DNA of 64,000 nt from a virus. How positions within the stretch are numbered: position 1 is the stretch's first letter; each line of letters starts with the position of its first letter. The notes under the pieces were generated by a model that made no database searches, was not told the origin of the DNA, and worked only from the letters and a program-made list of their open reading frames with translations. This document shows, piece by piece, positions 608 through 38,982 of this stretch. The position numbers and the translations under genes are program-made. Location of the stretch: positions 1-64,000 of IMG/VR virus record IMGVR_UViG_3300035183_000373; one strand, 5' to 3'.

Positions 608-3600
608 TCATATAATATACCATTGAGTACTAGTACCAATAATACTTAAACTGGCGTATTGAGTAGTTAGACTTTTCACAGCATTAGCGTCAATTAATTG
701 TCCAGATGACCCAGATACATGTACATTATTAGACGATGAATCTATTTTTTTAATTTTGATATGTCTACCAACAGAAATATTGATAGGAGGTAATTGAATA
801 TGAATGTCTCCTAAAGACGCACTTGCAAAAATAACATAATCTTTACTAAGAACTGTATATAAACCTGGTGAACTAATAAAAGTAGGTTCTATACTCAAAC
901 TACCAGTTACAACAATACCACCTGAAACAATTTGAGTTTTAGTGAATGTATTAGAAACTCCAGTTCCCGCAAATCCAGTGTGACCTGATGAAGAATAAGC
1001 AAGATTAGTTAAAGCAGCATGATTAGTAGTACCTATAGTACTTGAAGCAATCCATTTAGCATTTCCAACAGCATCTGATGATAATATATATCCATTTACC
1101 GCTCCAGATGTCATCTGGAACTTATTTGTAATAATACTTCCTGTTACAATAACACTACCTGTAACTTGTACATTGTTATTGAATCTTGATTTTCCAAATA
1201 CTTCAAAATTATTCTGAACATTATTTGTTGTAATCGAATTTACATTACCAACTGCAACTCTTCCATCAGAGAACATTACTTGTACAACATTAGTAGTAGC
1301 ATCTGTTTGGATATTGTATAATCCAATAGCTAATGCTGTTGCTGGAGATAAACCACTTTGATAACTTCCTATTCTAAAATCGACATAATTATTATATTTT
1401 TGACCACCTACACCCTCTCTAGCAAGTACAATTGCTGGAAATAGTGGTTCAGGAGAATTACCACCATTATTAGTAGGAGTATTAAACATTGCTGGAACAG
1501 CTTGTCCAGATGAATTCCAGTTTGTAACAGAATAATTCCCGCGTAAAGCATCATTACGACTATTAACTTGTAAAGGTATATCAGGTAATACAGAGGCTCC
1601 TATATTTACTCCAATTTTCGTAAGAGATTGAATTATACCATTTGGTAAATCTAATACATTATTGGCTTGAAAACTTGCTACGAGGTTATCTGCACTAATT
1701 ACTCCATCAGATATAGATTTCAAGTATATTTCAAATTTCGACTCAGAACCTATACCTGTCGCATAAGAGCCTATATTGAATTGAACAATTTCAGGGAAAG
1801 ATACTCCACTATTAAATGGTCTATGTACCATAAGAAATGGTTCACTTGTTATAGCATTAGATGCAAGTGACCCTGAAATAAAAATAGGACTTAGAGTATA
1901 AATAGAACCAGTTATTACTTGATTTTGTGTGAAATGGTTTACTACTTCAGTTCCCGCAAATCCAGTGTGACCTGATACAGAATAATCTAAGTTTGTTAAA
2001 GCAGCATGATTAGTAGTACCTCCTCCACTACCACTTGACCAATATGCATTACCATTTGAATCCGAAGTAAGTACATATCCATTTACAGCACCAGATGTCA
2101 TCTGGAATTTATCTGTAATAACACTTCCTGTTACAATAACACTACCAGTTACAGATACAGTACCTAAAACATCAAGAGTATTATTTGCCGATGTTTTACC
2201 AAGCGCAGTACTACCAAGATTAACTAATTTTACACTGTTTGGTGTAAGTATTTGTTTTACACTAACATTGTCGATACTACCATCAAAATTACTGGAAGGA
2301 GTAATTTGTAGTGGGTCCTGTGTAGTAGCAATAAATGTTTTTGTAAATGTACTATTATAATTACTTGTCTGGAATGTTTGCCCACCAATACTTACAGTAA
2401 CAGTACCAGCACTTGAAGTTGAAGGCATAAGTTGTTGATATGAAACAACATATGCATTACCTATAGTAATAGGTACAGATTGTGTAAGTGGATTAGTATT
2501 TCCTGTATTATGTGTTGCTATTCCACCAGATATTGTCCATCCAGTAGAATCCCACCCACTACCACTTGAAAAATCTCCATTGACAACAAGTTCACTACCT
2601 AATTGAGTTTTATCTGCTATAAAGATATTCTTTGAAATATCTAATGTATAATCGGCATTATGAATAGGAGGATTAGTATTTCCAAATATAGATTTATGAC
2701 CAAAAACATTTAATACTTTATCTGCACTTTGGAATATTCCATATCCTTCACTAATATTATTAAGATTAGCTTCACCACTAAAATTTGCAATTCCATACCA
2801 TCTGCCCACTGTACCATTATTTGGGAACACTTGATTTCTAACATTAATTACTGTATCAACGTGACCGCCAGTAACATTTATTTGAGGTTGAAGTTCAAAT
2901 CCAACCATTGTTCCATATCTCATTACAGTATTAAGTCGTAATGGAATACCAAACCCAAGCATATTAGGCGTAGTCCATGTAGCTCTTCTTGCTCCAGAGT
3001 TTACTCTACAATCAAAAAATGCACCTACAAGTAAATCACCAGCAATATCAGTGTGATTTACAATCTGAAGGCCTATAGCACGACCAGCAGTTGATATAGT
3101 TCCACGTGTAGTCATAACGTGACCATAAGCAGGAAATGGTTGTACTGAAGTTCCTGTTTGGTCGTACCATCTCATTTTTCCAGATGGAGCTACCTCTATA
3201 GACTTAGCTCCATCTTGTTTATCAACAATAATAACACTATTAACTTGACGGTTTATTGTCCATGTATCATTAAGTGTATGACCTGTACCATTTGTAAATG
3301 TGATAAATATACCGTCAGACACCTCTTGTGGTAGTCCTGGTGTTATTTGATTTTGCGGTACTACAAATTCACCTTGATTTTGTACAGAAAATGTATCTAC
3401 AGGCAAACCATTGGAAGGAGAAGTACTATCAATTTTTATTACTACAAAATTGCTATCAAGCCTACCTCTAAAACTACCACTCGCACTTAAATCGTTAAGA
3501 CCAGTGCCAGTAAATACTATATTTGTGTTAAAGCTCTCAGGATTTTTTAATCTCAAACTTCCAGTAGTAATTAAACTTCCAGAGATAGTTTGAGGTTGAG

Positions 3601-5762: not shown

Positions 5763-7166
5763 TTAAAATATGTTAACTGTTATTGTACCTGGAGAACCAT
5801 ATGAATTTTTAGGTATTGTTAAATTATTAAAACTATTTGGTAATATAGTATTATCTTGAGATTTAAAAACAGTAAATGGTAATAATACATCATCAACACC
5901 AGCAACATTCAATACTTCTCTTGCTATATCTGCTTGTTGAATTTCTTGACCTATTTTTAAATTTGATAAGAATGTATTTATAGCAGAAGATACAAGCGAT
6001 ATAACATCAGAACCAGAAAAACCTTGCATAACACGAATACTCACGGTAACATCAATTGGTATCTCATTAGCCCATTTAATTAATGTATCAGAATTAATAA
6101 CGTTTTGATTTTCTTTTTTAAGTAAGGACTGCAAATCTTCAATCAATCCATTATATTGATAATTAACTATTATTGAGCCAGATGAAATTGGAATAGACGA
6201 CAACCAATGTAATTTATCTTGAGCTAAAATAGAACCACCATATGCTCCAGAATCTTTTTGAATAATCCATGAAGAATTTGATAAATTTCCACTTATACTA
6301 GATACAACTGTATTAATTGAAGATTTTATCACAGGTTGTTTACTGAACACAAAATCTGGATACGGTTCAAATGGACTAAAAAATTCATCTTTAAAATCTC
6401 TGAATAATTTACCTTTGATATAAATATCAACGGCTCCTATGTCTGCTCTTCCAGTTTGTCCTTTTCCAACTACAACAGCATCTTCTACAAAGTCTTTATC
6501 TAAAATAAAAGATAAAAATCCGCTAGCTGAACCTAACGCTGTACCTGCTAATGCAGCACTTAATCTTGACCTCATTTCGGCAGTAGTTTCTTTATCTAAA
6601 CCACCAGTTGCTGCGAATGGATTATATACCCCATCTATTCCAGCTATTGCTCCATTGATATTCGTTATAGTTCCTGCACCAACATTACCATCAGACCCAC
6701 CGTTAACAGCCTCTACTTCTACAGCTATTTCATATTTTCCATTTTGTGTATTGAAATAACTTAAAGCCAGTGAAGCAACCATGGTTGCTGATTGAATTGT
6801 TCTAAATCTTATTGCGGTATTAGTATTTGATAGTGGTGTGGATACTAATGTTCCTGATGGTATAACAATGTCTGATTGTGGTGCTTGATTTCGGAAAAAT
6901 CGTACAATAGTTCTTGCTCTCCTAGCACCTCTAATTACTTTTGAAAAATTTAAAAGTGTTTTTTCTAACCCAGCTTCACTAGCAGTATTAATACTTTGTT
7001 CATCTGAAACTTGGTCAATTCTTGTGTACAATAATTCAAATTCTTTAGCTGGAGCGTCTATTACAACATCTCTTGTAAAAGTTCCTTCACTTAATTCAAC
7101 TTTTGAATTTCTACTTCTAATAAAATCTTTAAATGCTTGTACTATTGTTAAAAAATTTCTAGCCAT
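5763..7166 (-). CDS. Baseplate J-like wedge protein
   Basis: 467 aa. The order of elements fits the Baseplate_J (P2 gpJ / T4 gp6 core) family: an N-terminal helical part with DAPAKEFELLYTRIDQVSDEQSI, then R.A.T.VRFFRN, IPSGTLVSTPL, VEVEAVNGGSDGNVGAGTI and AATGGLDKETTAEMRSRL. The last two, the 'A...G..GNV..G.I' and 'GG.D.E....R.R' signatures, are typical of the family. J proteins form the wedge ring around the tail hub and rearrange at contraction. It is flanked by the gp25-like gene (upstream) and the gpI-position gene (downstream), the usual order. Confidence 0.88.
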   Translation of the reverse strand: MARNFLTIVQAFKDFIRSRNSKVELSEGTFTRDVVIDAPAKEFELLYTRIDQVSDEQSINTASEAGLEKTLLNFSKVIRGARRARTIVRFFRNQAPQSDIVIPSGTLVSTPLSNTNTAIRFRTIQSATMVASLALSYFNTQNGKYEIAVEVEAVNGGSDGNVGAGTITNINGAIAGIDGVYNPFAATGGLDKETTAEMRSRLSAALAGTALGSASGFLSFILDKDFVEDAVVVGKGQTGRADIGAVDIYIKGKLFRDFKDEFFSPFEPYPDFVFSKQPVIKSSINTVVSSISGNLSNSSWIIQKDSGAYGGSILAQDKLHWLSSIPISSGSIIVNYQYNGLIEDLQSLLKKENQNVINSDTLIKWANEIPIDVTVSIRVMQGFSGSDVISLVSSAINTFLSNLKIGQEIQQADIAREVLNVAGVDDVLLPFTVFKSQDNTILPNSFNNLTIPKNSYGSPGTITVNIF

Positions 7167-29250: not shown

Positions 29251-29258
29251 TATTTATA
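29251..29258 (-). promoter_or_regulatory. Possible T4-type late promoter (TATAAATA)
   Basis: Exact TATAAATA on the minus strand about 20 bases upstream of the scaffold ATG. Chance matches are expected in such AT-rich DNA, and I did not find the same box before the other late genes. Confidence 0.25.
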
Positions 29259-29267
29259 ATGTAATGT

Positions 29268-29368
29268 TTGACATTCTCCCGTATAAATTACGGAAGATTC
29301 TCAGGCAAACTCCAACGTGGAGCTTAACGCCTGTTGCGGAGTGCCCCTCCGCATGATATTCAATACTG
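29268..29368 (-). ncRNA. Orphan IS200/IS605 right-end / omegaRNA-like structured element
   Basis: Three consecutive hairpins are visible in about 100 bases. The first is TGCGGAG/CTCCGCA (29335-29341 with 29347-29353). The second is nested, GCCTG/CAGGC enclosing CTCCA/TGGAG (29302-29333). The third is CCGTA/TACGG (29279-29293) ending GAGAATGTCAA. On the minus strand this order and the terminal 'GAGAATC..CCGT...ACGGGAGAATGTCAA' look like the right end of IS605-type elements, the scaffold of TnpB omegaRNA. No tnpA or tnpB is present, so it would be a solo end or a miniature element. The assignment is from memory of such ends. Confidence 0.5.
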
Positions 29369-29387
29369 AATTATACATACATTTGAA

Positions 29388-29421
29388 AAGAATGTATTGA
29401 CTTTTGCATCAATACATTCTT
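29388..29421 (-). terminator. 13-bp hairpin after methyltransferase gene
   Basis: Perfect inverted repeat AAGAATGTATTGA / TCAATACATTCTT with an 8-nt loop, about 110 bases past the methyltransferase stop, followed on the minus strand by TTTTC. It could be a weak terminator or the left-end hairpin of the IS605-like element next to it. Confidence 0.4.
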
Positions 29422-29532: not shown

Positions 29533-30324
29533 TTAAGATTTAGATGTTATTTCTGTTAATATTCTTGTTTTTGCTAATTCACAATATTTTTTATCTATAT
29601 CTACACCTATACCATTACGCCCTGTTTCTAAACATGCAAGTAAAGTAGACCCACTTCCAACAAATGGGTCAAGTACAACATCCCCAACAAAACTAAAAAG
29701 TTTTATACATCTTTTAGGAAGTTCAACAGGAAACGGAGCTGGATGTCCAGCTCTTTTTTTACTTTCACCAGTAATATCCCATATTCCATTTGTCCATTTT
29801 ATAAACTCATCTTTACTTATATCTGATACACGACTGCCACTAATTTTTTTCCATTGTTGTTTATACATAATCAAAACAACTTCAACTGGTGGTATAACAT
29901 ATGGTGCTGATGCCGAAAGCCACGAACCCCATGCAGTTCTTTTTGATACATTGTGCTTATTCCATATAACTGTAGAATGATACTTAAAACCTATATTTTT
30001 TGCTATAGTTGTTATATCTGCACAAATACTGTATTGTCCGTTTTTATTTCCATTCAATGGTATATTAACACATAATCTACCATCGTCTTTAAGAAATTTA
30101 TAAATTTTATTAAGCCAATTTTTTGTAAAAATAAGATAATTATCATAATCCATAGTATCATTATGAGAATTATATTCTATACCTACGTTATACGGAGGCG
30201 AAGTAACTACTAAATCTATAGAATTAGATTCAATACTTTGTATATTTAATATATCGGCGTTATAAATTTTTATTGAATTTTCGTTGTTACTAAAAAATAA
30301 TTCATTTATCATATTATTGTTCAT
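29533..30324 (-). CDS. Site-specific DNA methyltransferase (amino-MTase, beta-class order)
   Basis: 263 aa. The catalytic TSPPYNVG motif is at residues 41-48 and the SAM-binding motif LDPFVGSGSTLLAC is at about 218-231. The GIGVDID strand follows at 239-244. The SPPY-before-FxGxG order is that of beta-class N4-cytosine/N6-adenine methyltransferases. HPAPFPVELPKRCI precedes the SAM site, as in many phage enzymes. No cognate endonuclease is encoded nearby, so it likely protects phage DNA from host restriction. It has its own sigma70-like promoter (30349-30377). Base specificity cannot be read. Confidence 0.9.
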   Translation of the reverse strand: MNNNMINELFFSNNENSIKIYNADILNIQSIESNSIDLVVTSPPYNVGIEYNSHNDTMDYDNYLIFTKNWLNKIYKFLKDDGRLCVNIPLNGNKNGQYSICADITTIAKNIGFKYHSTVIWNKHNVSKRTAWGSWLSASAPYVIPPVEVVLIMYKQQWKKISGSRVSDISKDEFIKWTNGIWDITGESKKRAGHPAPFPVELPKRCIKLFSFVGDVVLDPFVGSGSTLLACLETGRNGIGVDIDKKYCELAKTRILTEITSKS

Positions 30325-35790: not shown

Positions 35791-38700
35791 TTATACTCCA
35801 GACTTTATTTCACAAACATCGTTTGAACAGAATTTATCAACGTCAGCTTCAGAACCTCTAACACGTCCAAAATTAACTTTATTAATATTTTTTATTTTTT
35901 CTTTATATTGTTCCTCTGTTATTGCTTCATATGGCATTTGTCTATATGGTTTAGTTGTATAACGTGGTAAAAATGATATACCTTTTAATTGATATTGGAA
36001 ATAATTTAATGCATTGGATAATTGATGTCCTTCTTTTTCTGGGTCAAATGTTATAGTTGCTGACACTTGATTGTCACTCCAATATCTTTGCATAAATGCT
36101 GCTAGACATAACTGTTCCCACATAGATACTTCAGATACAGAACGAAGTCCTTCACCAACATCTACTGGTATTTCTACAACTACAGTAGATTCTTCTAAAC
36201 CATAACATGGTTCTATTGTGTATCCTGCTTTTTTTAGAGGTTCTAATAATTTAGAAAATTTATTTAATCTTATTCGTCTAATATAAAATCTTGATTCAGG
36301 ATAATGTATTCCTGGTGTAGCACCAGCAAGTAACGACACTGTATTATGACTTTTTACTGCACCAGCATAATACCAATGTGAATTCTCTACTTCTATATCA
36401 TAGGTATTCATTTCTCCAATTAACGATACACTTTTTACTTTTCCAAGTATTCTATGAGAAGTTTTTAATTCACAATTCCAAGGTAAATCTGGACGTTTCA
36501 TATTATAATTTTGCATCTTTACTGAGTGCTTCTTTAATAACATAAAACGTTCAACATTAGATTCTGGCATCGAAGTAAGTAACCACATAGATTTTCGTTT
36601 TTGCAGATTATATCCTTGTGTATTATGCGACCTACTAAAGACTATACCTACAGCTAAACTAATATCTTGTACATGTCTTGCAAATTCTTCATCAGCAGTA
36701 GATAATATTACAACATTACTTCTTTCACGAGCACTAACACATCCATCTGCATCTATTAAACCAGCAATAAATGCTATAATTACCTCAGCACTTCCTTGTC
36801 GAATTACTTTAGGAATGAATGATAATTTGTCATTATAATACTTGAACACATCATTACGAATAAGCCAATGCCACAAAAATTTAGAACTAATATCTAATGT
36901 CCAAGCCTTTCTATGTTGACTTGCTTTATATATTACAGAATCTAATCCAAAATATTCTTTTACAATATTTTGTGCTTTTTTTAGATTATCCAACCTGCCA
37001 TCTATAAATCTTATTCTAAATTTACCTGGAGACATAGCACCGTCTCCCCATAAATAACCGAAGAACCATGCTAAATCTGGTGTGAGTATTATCGGTTGAA
37101 GAATATCTTTAGCGTCTGTTCTCATTTTAAATGAAATAGAATTTAATTCTTTTAAATATACTGGAGAATCTTTATCATAAATACCTGGTACTATTTCTAA
37201 TATATCTTCTGAAGTTAGTTCGTCTGTTTTTTTCCATGTATTTACGTCATTATATTTTTTATTTTTGTAATTCTTTTTTACCCACCATAAATGATTACCA
37301 GTTGACCTTAATTCTATATTATAACTACATAATATTTTATATACTGGAGTTTTTCCATTAACATACGTTTTAACTATTCTCTCTTCAGTATTATTTTCCT
37401 GAATAACAGTATATCCTTCACAATTAGACCATATTTCTTTTTCATTATGCTGTTCAAATAATTCTTCAAGAGTTAATATACCTTGTTTTGTAGAGGTTAA
37501 AGCATCCGATGGCCGACATCCACTTGGTTTTACGCTAGTGGTTTTAATACTTCTTGGTACAGCTAACCATTCAGAATATATTCCATCCCATTTTTGTATT
37601 TCATTATATCCAGCTTCTAACCATTGTCTTAAAGTTTCTATACCATATTTTGTAATAAATTGAGCTATACCACTTACAGAACATCCTATTCTTCTATTTC
37701 TTAAAATAATTCTATTTGTTTCTACCCAATGAGTTTTACCTAAAGTAACTGTTTTAGCATATAAATATGCATATTTTAAAGTTGTAAGAAAATCTTCTAA
37801 TGATGAATGTCTATAAGGAAAAGTTTCTACAAGATTGCATAATTCATAGGATTCAAGTGTTTGCTCTAAACAAGGATTTCCTCCATCTGCACGTCTATCT
37901 TTATAATCTGGTCCATTATTCATTCTAGAAAAGTTACGCATGTTTTCTAACCATGCAAATCCAGGTTCACCATTTATTAAAATTCTTTCACAAACATTTT
38001 CGTAATTATCCCCAATTTTTGCAAAAACAGAATTATTACTAGCCCATCCATAACTTTCTCTATGTGGATTCTTACTATAATTTTTTAAATCTAAATATTC
38101 AGTATTATTAATATCACCAAATACTATTTCAGCACTACGCCTAATGTTTCCAGATACAACTGCCTTACCAATTAAATTCATTATATCCACAATTGCAGTT
38201 ACAGATATAGGCTGATTTTTTTCTTTATCTAAAACTTTTTTTATATCATTATGCATATCTTCCAATGCTTTATATCCAGAACTTACACCTCCGAATCCAC
38301 GAATTATTGAACCTGCTGGTCTAATCAATGAATAATCAAATTCTATTGGAGCAGTACCTAAAAAATAAGATTCTAATAATAATCTTAATGATTCTACCCA
38401 TCCCTCTCTTGAATCTGGTATTTGATATACTTCTTTATTTCTTTTTGTATTAGGTCCTTTAATTATTATTTGTCCAGCTCCAAGAGTATCAAAACCTACT
38501 CCAACACCTAACATCGACATATCCATCAAAAATAAAAACGGTTTGGATAAATCTTCTTTTAAGTTTTTTGTACTAACAAATCCGCAATTATTCAAAGATG
38601 CATATAAATTTTTTTCCTCAGTAATTTCACTTCCCATTGCCCATAATCCTCTTCCAGGTGGGAGAAATTTCATATTAAAGATTCTATCATACATTTGTTG

Positions 38701-38982
38701 TGCTGACCTTTGAGCTTGCCATGCATTCCAACCACATCCATGAGTTTCTATATGCTTTTTCTGCATATTATAAGTACCTTCAACAACTCTTCTACATGTT
38801 TCCCACCATTGTTCGTTTTGACAATTGCAATTTTTATAATTATTTTCTTTGCATGAAGTAGTATGAATTATACGTGAATATGTTTGAAAAAATACTAATT
38901 CTCCTAATCCATTAAATCCAAATGGTGGTTTTTTATTTTTATAAGATTCTACAAAAGAGTCTGAAAGACGAAACTTATCCAT
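35791..38982 (-). CDS. Class II (B12-dependent) ribonucleotide reductase with intein
   Basis: 1063 aa precursor. The exteins are residues 1-488 and 881-1063 (671 aa when spliced). Extein landmarks are FLPPGRGLWAMGS, LNNCGFVSTKN, GNIRRSAEIVFGD, GGNPCLEQTLESYELCNLVE (catalytic Cys and Glu), KPSG|TVSLLAGATPGIHYP and a C-terminal FCSNDVCEIK pair that acts as the redox shuttle. This order resembles monomeric adenosylcobalamin-dependent ribonucleotide reductases (Lactobacillus RTPR type). No separate R2 gene is needed. It reduces ribonucleotides for phage DNA synthesis, and ThyX lies downstream. The intein splits the active-site loop, so splicing is essential. Confidence 0.9.
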   Translation of the reverse strand: MDKFRLSDSFVESYKNKKPPFGFNGLGELVFFQTYSRIIHTTSCKENNYKNCNCQNEQWWETCRRVVEGTYNMQKKHIETHGCGWNAWQAQRSAQQMYDRIFNMKFLPPGRGLWAMGSEITEEKNLYASLNNCGFVSTKNLKEDLSKPFLFLMDMSMLGVGVGFDTLGAGQIIIKGPNTKRNKEVYQIPDSREGWVESLRLLLESYFLGTAPIEFDYSLIRPAGSIIRGFGGVSSGYKALEDMHNDIKKVLDKEKNQPISVTAIVDIMNLIGKAVVSGNIRRSAEIVFGDINNTEYLDLKNYSKNPHRESYGWASNNSVFAKIGDNYENVCERILINGEPGFAWLENMRNFSRMNNGPDYKDRRADGGNPCLEQTLESYELCNLVETFPYRHSSLEDFLTTLKYAYLYAKTVTLGKTHWVETNRIILRNRRIGCSVSGIAQFITKYGIETLRQWLEAGYNEIQKWDGIYSEWLAVPRSIKTTSVKPSGCRPSDALTSTKQGILTLEELFEQHNEKEIWSNCEGYTVIQENNTEERIVKTYVNGKTPVYKILCSYNIELRSTGNHLWWVKKNYKNKKYNDVNTWKKTDELTSEDILEIVPGIYDKDSPVYLKELNSISFKMRTDAKDILQPIILTPDLAWFFGYLWGDGAMSPGKFRIRFIDGRLDNLKKAQNIVKEYFGLDSVIYKASQHRKAWTLDISSKFLWHWLIRNDVFKYYNDKLSFIPKVIRQGSAEVIIAFIAGLIDADGCVSARERSNVVILSTADEEFARHVQDISLAVGIVFSRSHNTQGYNLQKRKSMWLLTSMPESNVERFMLLKKHSVKMQNYNMKRPDLPWNCELKTSHRILGKVKSVSLIGEMNTYDIEVENSHWYYAGAVKSHNTVSLLAGATPGIHYPESRFYIRRIRLNKFSKLLEPLKKAGYTIEPCYGLEESTVVVEIPVDVGEGLRSVSEVSMWEQLCLAAFMQRYWSDNQVSATITFDPEKEGHQLSNALNYFQYQLKGISFLPRYTTKPYRQMPYEAITEEQYKEKIKNINKVNFGRVRGSEADVDKFCSNDVCEIKSGV
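36343..37518 (-). mobile_element. LAGLIDADG intein inserted at KPSG/T of RNR
   Basis: 392 aa, residues 489-880 of the precursor. Block A starts with Cys (CRPSDALTS). Block B is RSTGNHLWWV (TxxH). Two dodecapeptides, WFFGYLWGDGAMS and FIAGLIDADGCVS, make a full LAGLIDADG homing endonuclease. Blocks F/G are YDIEVENSHWYYAG and KSHN. The following residue is Thr, which serves as the +1 nucleophile. All splicing residues look intact. KPSG/T in the RNR active site is a known intein insertion site. Confidence 0.93.

Follow-up and report, generated by a model that had tools for sequence, protein, structure and literature searches.

The locus raises two questions: whether the series of hairpins on the minus strand, just upstream of the gene of a 608-aa protein, is the end of an IS200/IS605-type element and, if so, whether it serves any function there. 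The window (the whole stretch of 64,000 nucleotides analysed) is part of a 69,657-bp IMG/VR virus record. The features of the locus, in the order of minus-strand transcription, are:

29533..30324, minus strand: gene of an N6/N4 DNA methyltransferase (PF01555), the upstream neighbour
29388..29421, minus strand: perfect 13-bp hairpin with a short CTTTTC tail, a probable intergenic terminator, outside the element
29301..29375, minus strand: vestigial tnpB 3′ end of 24 codons, YNSVLNIMRRGTPQQALSSTLEFA, and a stop, recognised by translating the frame against TnpB C-termini
29268..29372, minus strand: solo right end (RE), or omegaRNA scaffold, of an IS200/IS605-type TnpB element, from the covariance-model (R1) match and the fold
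29335..29353, minus strand: scaffold hairpin 1, TGCGGAG-GGGCA-CTCCGCA, within the tnpB 3′ end, from the fold
29302..29333, minus strand: scaffold stem 2, CAGGC/GCCTG around the hairpin CTCCA/TGGAG, from the fold
29275..29297, minus strand: terminal RE hairpin TCTTCCGTA-ATTTA-TACGGGAGA, from the fold
29268..29272, minus strand: terminal pentanucleotide of the RE, GTCAA, the scaffold/guide boundary
29252..29267, minus strand: would-be guide ACATTACATTATAAAT, the bases past GTCAA
27405..29231, minus strand: gene of a 608-aa protein near the major capsid gene, the downstream neighbour

The original prediction, made from the sequence alone, had described three stacked hairpins ending GGGAGAATGTCAA on the minus strand. 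These were found at 29335–29353, 29302–29333 and 29275–29297, and the series has the GAGAATGTCAA end as stated. In the computed fold, the minus strand reaches −69.7 kcal/mol (z = −7.4), a stability that not one of 200 dinucleotide-shuffled sequences attained; for the plus strand, z = −4.5. In TnpB omegaRNAs, a 3′ stem-loop lies no more than about 10 nt from the guide boundary (PMC10278001), and so it does here, with the last hairpin at 29275–29297 and the boundary after 29268. The RE hairpins carry no T run and no terminator was called at the element, so they do not have the make-up of an intrinsic terminator.

The identity of the element was approached with R1, which was built from six REs linked to intact tnpB genes, with the window sequence left out. 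Run on the 64-kb window, R1 gave a single match, 29268–29372 on the minus strand (49.1 bits, E = 1.9e-9, a rough value because the model is small, with an effective number of 2.07, and its calibration was short); run on the whole record, it recovered the same element at E = 2.1e-9. The match is an independent test of the membership of the element among tnpB-linked REs. Rfam, searched at gathering and permissive thresholds, gave nothing relevant and no match above the gathering score. BLASTN gave weak partial matches in phages and none in plasmids, and R1 had no match in the related phage loci L006–L009. The Rfam blank would be expected if ordinary hairpins, for instance terminators, were stacked by chance and merely resembled an RE, but that idea is already refuted by the R1 match and is further opposed by the retained tnpB frame and the Hakubella homology described below; its probability is close to nil. 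The segment from 29372 to 29268 is the RE and omegaRNA scaffold of an IS200/IS605-type TnpB element, ending in GTCAA on the minus strand, as had been proposed.

The pattern GTTAAGC-N8-16-TTTGCCTGAGAATC, taken from the second stem of the scaffold, matched once in genomes from 84,980 species; the match sits where an intact tnpB of Candidatus Hakubella thermalkaliphila has its 3′ end. The RE of this tnpB (L062, NZ_BLRZ01000077.1) is the nearest cellular match, and the encoded protein (373 aa) scores 306 bits with the NCBIfam guided_TnpB model, vs a cut-off of 100. Its relatives L063 (75%) and L064 (69%), from viral contigs, and L154 (56%), from a genome, share its RE layout. As in the window, the REs of L062, L063 and L064 display a GGGCA-loop hairpin inside the tnpB 3′ end, then a CAGGC/GCCTG-type stem around a variable hairpin followed by CCTGAGA, and finally a terminal hairpin followed by GTCAA (GCCAA in L064). 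Hairpin 1 coincides in position with GGCTC-GGGCA-GAGCC of L062, L063 and L154. Unlike the window, with its 24 codons, the three REs are joined to intact tnpB genes of 373–386 aa. Concerning viral sequences, a looser pattern gave 46 matches, most of them due to chance, the informative ones being L013, L011/L018 and L054. The viral pattern match L010 was discarded as due to chance, since it falls within predicted coding sequence and lacks the RE layout. The viral contig of L018, in which no TnpB was detected, bears at 3371–3526 two partial copies of TTTGCCTGAGAATCTCAGC about 120 bp apart.

The frame that runs into the scaffold was set beside the TnpB C-termini of L062, L063, L064 and L154. Its product, YNSVLNIMRRGTPQQALSSTLEFA and a stop, is the counterpart of HNASLNILRLGQSLPALSTERVFA in the Hakubella TnpB and of YNASLNIFRLGQSRQALTVGLPTVA in L063, both also followed by a stop, and the stop codon TGA of GCCTGAG is common to the window, L062, L063 and L064. 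Over these 24 tnpB-like codons, with their shared stop, the scaffold overlaps the coding 3′ end of tnpB, and upstream of about 29375 there is nothing tnpB-like; the element extends from 29268 to about 29375. Since the codons of the TnpB C-terminus are in frame, the element is a 5′-truncated tnpB with its RE, i.e. a solo right end.

Concerning the rest of a mobile element, the search of the 69,657-bp record gave no PF07282 or other TnpB protein match and no Y1 transposase (Y1_Tnp). The left-end motif, known from L062 and L063 only, was not found in the window, and there is one copy of the element in the record; in an element of the IS200/IS605 or IS1341 type that is autonomous or intact, tnpB, with or without tnpA, would lie between two ends. 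At 69.7 kb, vs 172–194 kb in relatives, the record covers part of a phage genome, and a tnpB may therefore lie elsewhere in the phage. A miniature element had also been suggested, that is, a PATE, an ends-only IS200/IS605 derivative mobilisable by TnpA acting in trans. The element is indeed short and has an RE, and multi-copy PATE-like elements with a related RE occur in other viral contigs (L158–L160). PATEs, e.g. those of Halanaerobium, also derive from IS605, are short and lack tnpA and tnpB, but they have both ends, whereas only the right end is recognised in the window (PMC7290912). The two palindromic ends and the usual several copies of a PATE were not found; the lack of a left-end motif, the single copy, the absence of a Y1 transposase from the record and from the relatives G047, G048 and G049, and the tnpB codons still present make this origin very improbable.

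The elements of those other contigs (L158, 500–643; L160, 303–447; L159, 1829–1952) are near-identical, stand-alone, 120–145 nt long and set in different flanks, with sigma70-like TTGACA/TATTAT sequences, a palindrome CCAACTA/TAGTTGG and an RE-like scaffold that ends at or near TTCAA. They were considered as promoter-driven guide-RNA genes; the shared TTGACA start, the palindrome and the different flanks mark them as PATE-like instead.

The surroundings of the element were compared with those in three relatives found via the capsid protein (L006, L007 and L008). The 13-bp hairpin that the original prediction counted with the element is present at 29388–29421, but the relatives have T-tailed hairpins of unrelated sequence in the corresponding intergenic region, so it is probably the terminator of the upstream operon and a feature separate from the element. 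The element itself is absent upstream of the homologous 608-aa gene in all three, none of which has a counterpart of the methyltransferase gene. At its place, L006 and L008 have a common leader sequence that is not recognisable in the window. The 608-aa protein, called a scaffold protein at first reading, had no family match. Could the element be kept because it acts in cis on this gene, as an RNA or DNA structure such as a leader, an insulator or an RNA-stability element? A stretch of 36 nt separates its end from the start codon, a different leader is shared by L006 and L008 at that place, and a precedent comes from the free-standing IS605 stem-loops of Borrelia plasmids (Delihas 2009, PMC2775950), kept near lipoprotein genes. 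Like the window element, the Borrelia stem-loops are IS605 ends without a transposase gene next to unrelated genes, but they derive from a different IS and are reported to be conserved at the RNA level, vs the fast change seen here in one sister (PMC2775950). The element evolves faster than its flanks, is missing from relatives with the same 608-aa gene and has no T tract past the terminal hairpin or called terminator, so that a cis-acting role is unlikely.

The rate of change was estimated from a sister contig, L002, which is 95% identical to the window and retains the insertion. The element is the fastest-changing intergenic stretch between both, with 7 substitutions in 105 positions vs 3 in 196 of the intergenic flanks (Fisher p = 0.036), in a comparison of two alleles with few changes. 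A sharper figure, 6/48 (p = 0.002), corresponds to a stretch picked after looking at the data. In L002, the element has a 10-bp deletion, GTCAC in place of GTCAA, an insertion of 1 nt after the boundary, and a terminal hairpin of −7.0 kcal/mol vs −11.5 kcal/mol in the window. The GTCAC end is not proof of loss, because the tnpB-linked relatives L147 and L148 also end in GTCAC. As far as two alleles can tell, the faster change of the element suggests a relic and favours it over a domesticated RNA. The domestication initially contemplated is disfavoured by this rate, by the altered boundary and weaker last hairpin of L002, and by the vestigial tnpB codons, which are the mark of a truncation product.

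It seems reasonable to interpret that the site flanked by the methyltransferase gene and by the virion-cluster gene of the 608-aa protein was formerly occupied by a TnpB element of the IS200/IS605 superfamily, with relatives among the TnpBs of several IMG/VR phages and of Candidatus Hakubella. A deletion would have taken the left end and all of tnpB but the last 24 codons, and the remnant would be the right end that doubles as omegaRNA scaffold, a stranded relic well folded here, apparently degrading in the sister and probably devoid of specific function. The data show the homology, the orphan state within this record, the vestigial frame and the faster change; we infer this order of events and this lack of function, and consider it likely that the element is such a decaying solo right end. 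A point to the contrary is that nearly all the conserved features of the scaffold are intact in the window allele, more than an old relic would have to retain.

Solo REs were also found elsewhere. L013, matched by R1, is an RE from a viral contig in which no TnpB was detected. Another orphan RE, with no tnpB nearby, comes from G048, a related phage of 172 kb (L171, 544–649; G048:C1:59443–59548); into it runs the tail of a 73-aa ORF that ends like a TnpB C-terminus and is similar, at its N-terminus, to a homing-endonuclease-like protein that G048 also encodes. Hakubella has 14 R1 matches at E ≤ 0.01; no tnpB lies near at least two of them, those in C117 and C85 (solo REs L172 and L173). Solo REs are thus not unusual, and the window element, carried by a large phage, falls into this known class of TnpB right ends and is, most likely, mainly a well-documented relic in decay. 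It would mean that TnpB elements of large phages can decay until a bare scaffold for the guide RNA, still able to fold, is left, that Rfam misses this one, and that any stub expressed alongside a TnpB would be a ready-made trans guide.

In that respect, a functional orphan omegaRNA has to be weighed, i.e. a minus-strand transcript that a TnpB of the phage or of its host would take up in trans, with a guide starting ACATTACATT, and serving as a nuclease guide or as a TldR-like repressor guide near the leader of the 608-aa gene. A trans-acting role is conceivable in view of the incomplete record and of the two full-length TnpBs that G048 has besides its orphan RE, the 3′ end of one of them scoring 40 bits with R1. 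The scaffold is intact in the window allele, the guide position is the same in L002 but for the 1-nt insertion at the boundary, and a 2026 paper suggests that guide RNAs may still be supplied in trans by a broken tldR locus (PMC13418256). The TldR guide RNAs of prophages are, like the window scaffold, phage RNAs derived from TnpB, but a nuclease-dead protein is encoded beside them, while there is none in the window (PMC13418256). Against this function, the record has no TnpB, no sigma-70-type promoter was found nearby, the terminal hairpin and boundary are the parts changing fastest in L002, and the target search in the window gave AT-rich matches with mismatches only, none of them a clear target. 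Altogether, we regard a functional omegaRNA as unlikely. It is likewise unlikely that this phage group keeps solo omegaRNA scaffolds (that of the window and L171 in G048) charged in trans by phage or host TnpBs, in which case one nuclease would gain extra guides from phage intergenic sites. The "guide" was also considered as covering a T4-like late promoter, TATAAATA, and this was rejected, as the motif precedes genes about as often as expected (5 vs 4.3).

Some other loci deserve mention. In L063, a methyltransferase fragment (3–551) lies directly upstream of the phage tnpB, as the methyltransferase gene does upstream of the window RE. A methyltransferase–TnpB unit was considered for this reason; with 47% identity over 89 aa, and with L063 and (weakly) L087 as the only instances, it remains a lead. 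In G048 (L058, G048:C1:142000–146000), the gene of a 426-aa TnpB-family protein is followed, at about 1107–1344, by a CRISPR-like array with four repeats of GTTGCAACTCGCACGTGTGTATGAGATGACAG and spacers of 34–36 nt, one of which matches the 3′ end of the adjoining tnpB at 32 of 35 positions. The window itself encodes, at 35791–38982, a 1063-aa ribonucleotide reductase with an endonuclease-like stretch (528–775) inside, probably an intein. In the related phage locus L008, the capsid gene matches only from residue 52 onwards and comes after an ORF of 276 aa (6091–6921); the major capsid gene may be interrupted here by an intron that contains a homing endonuclease.
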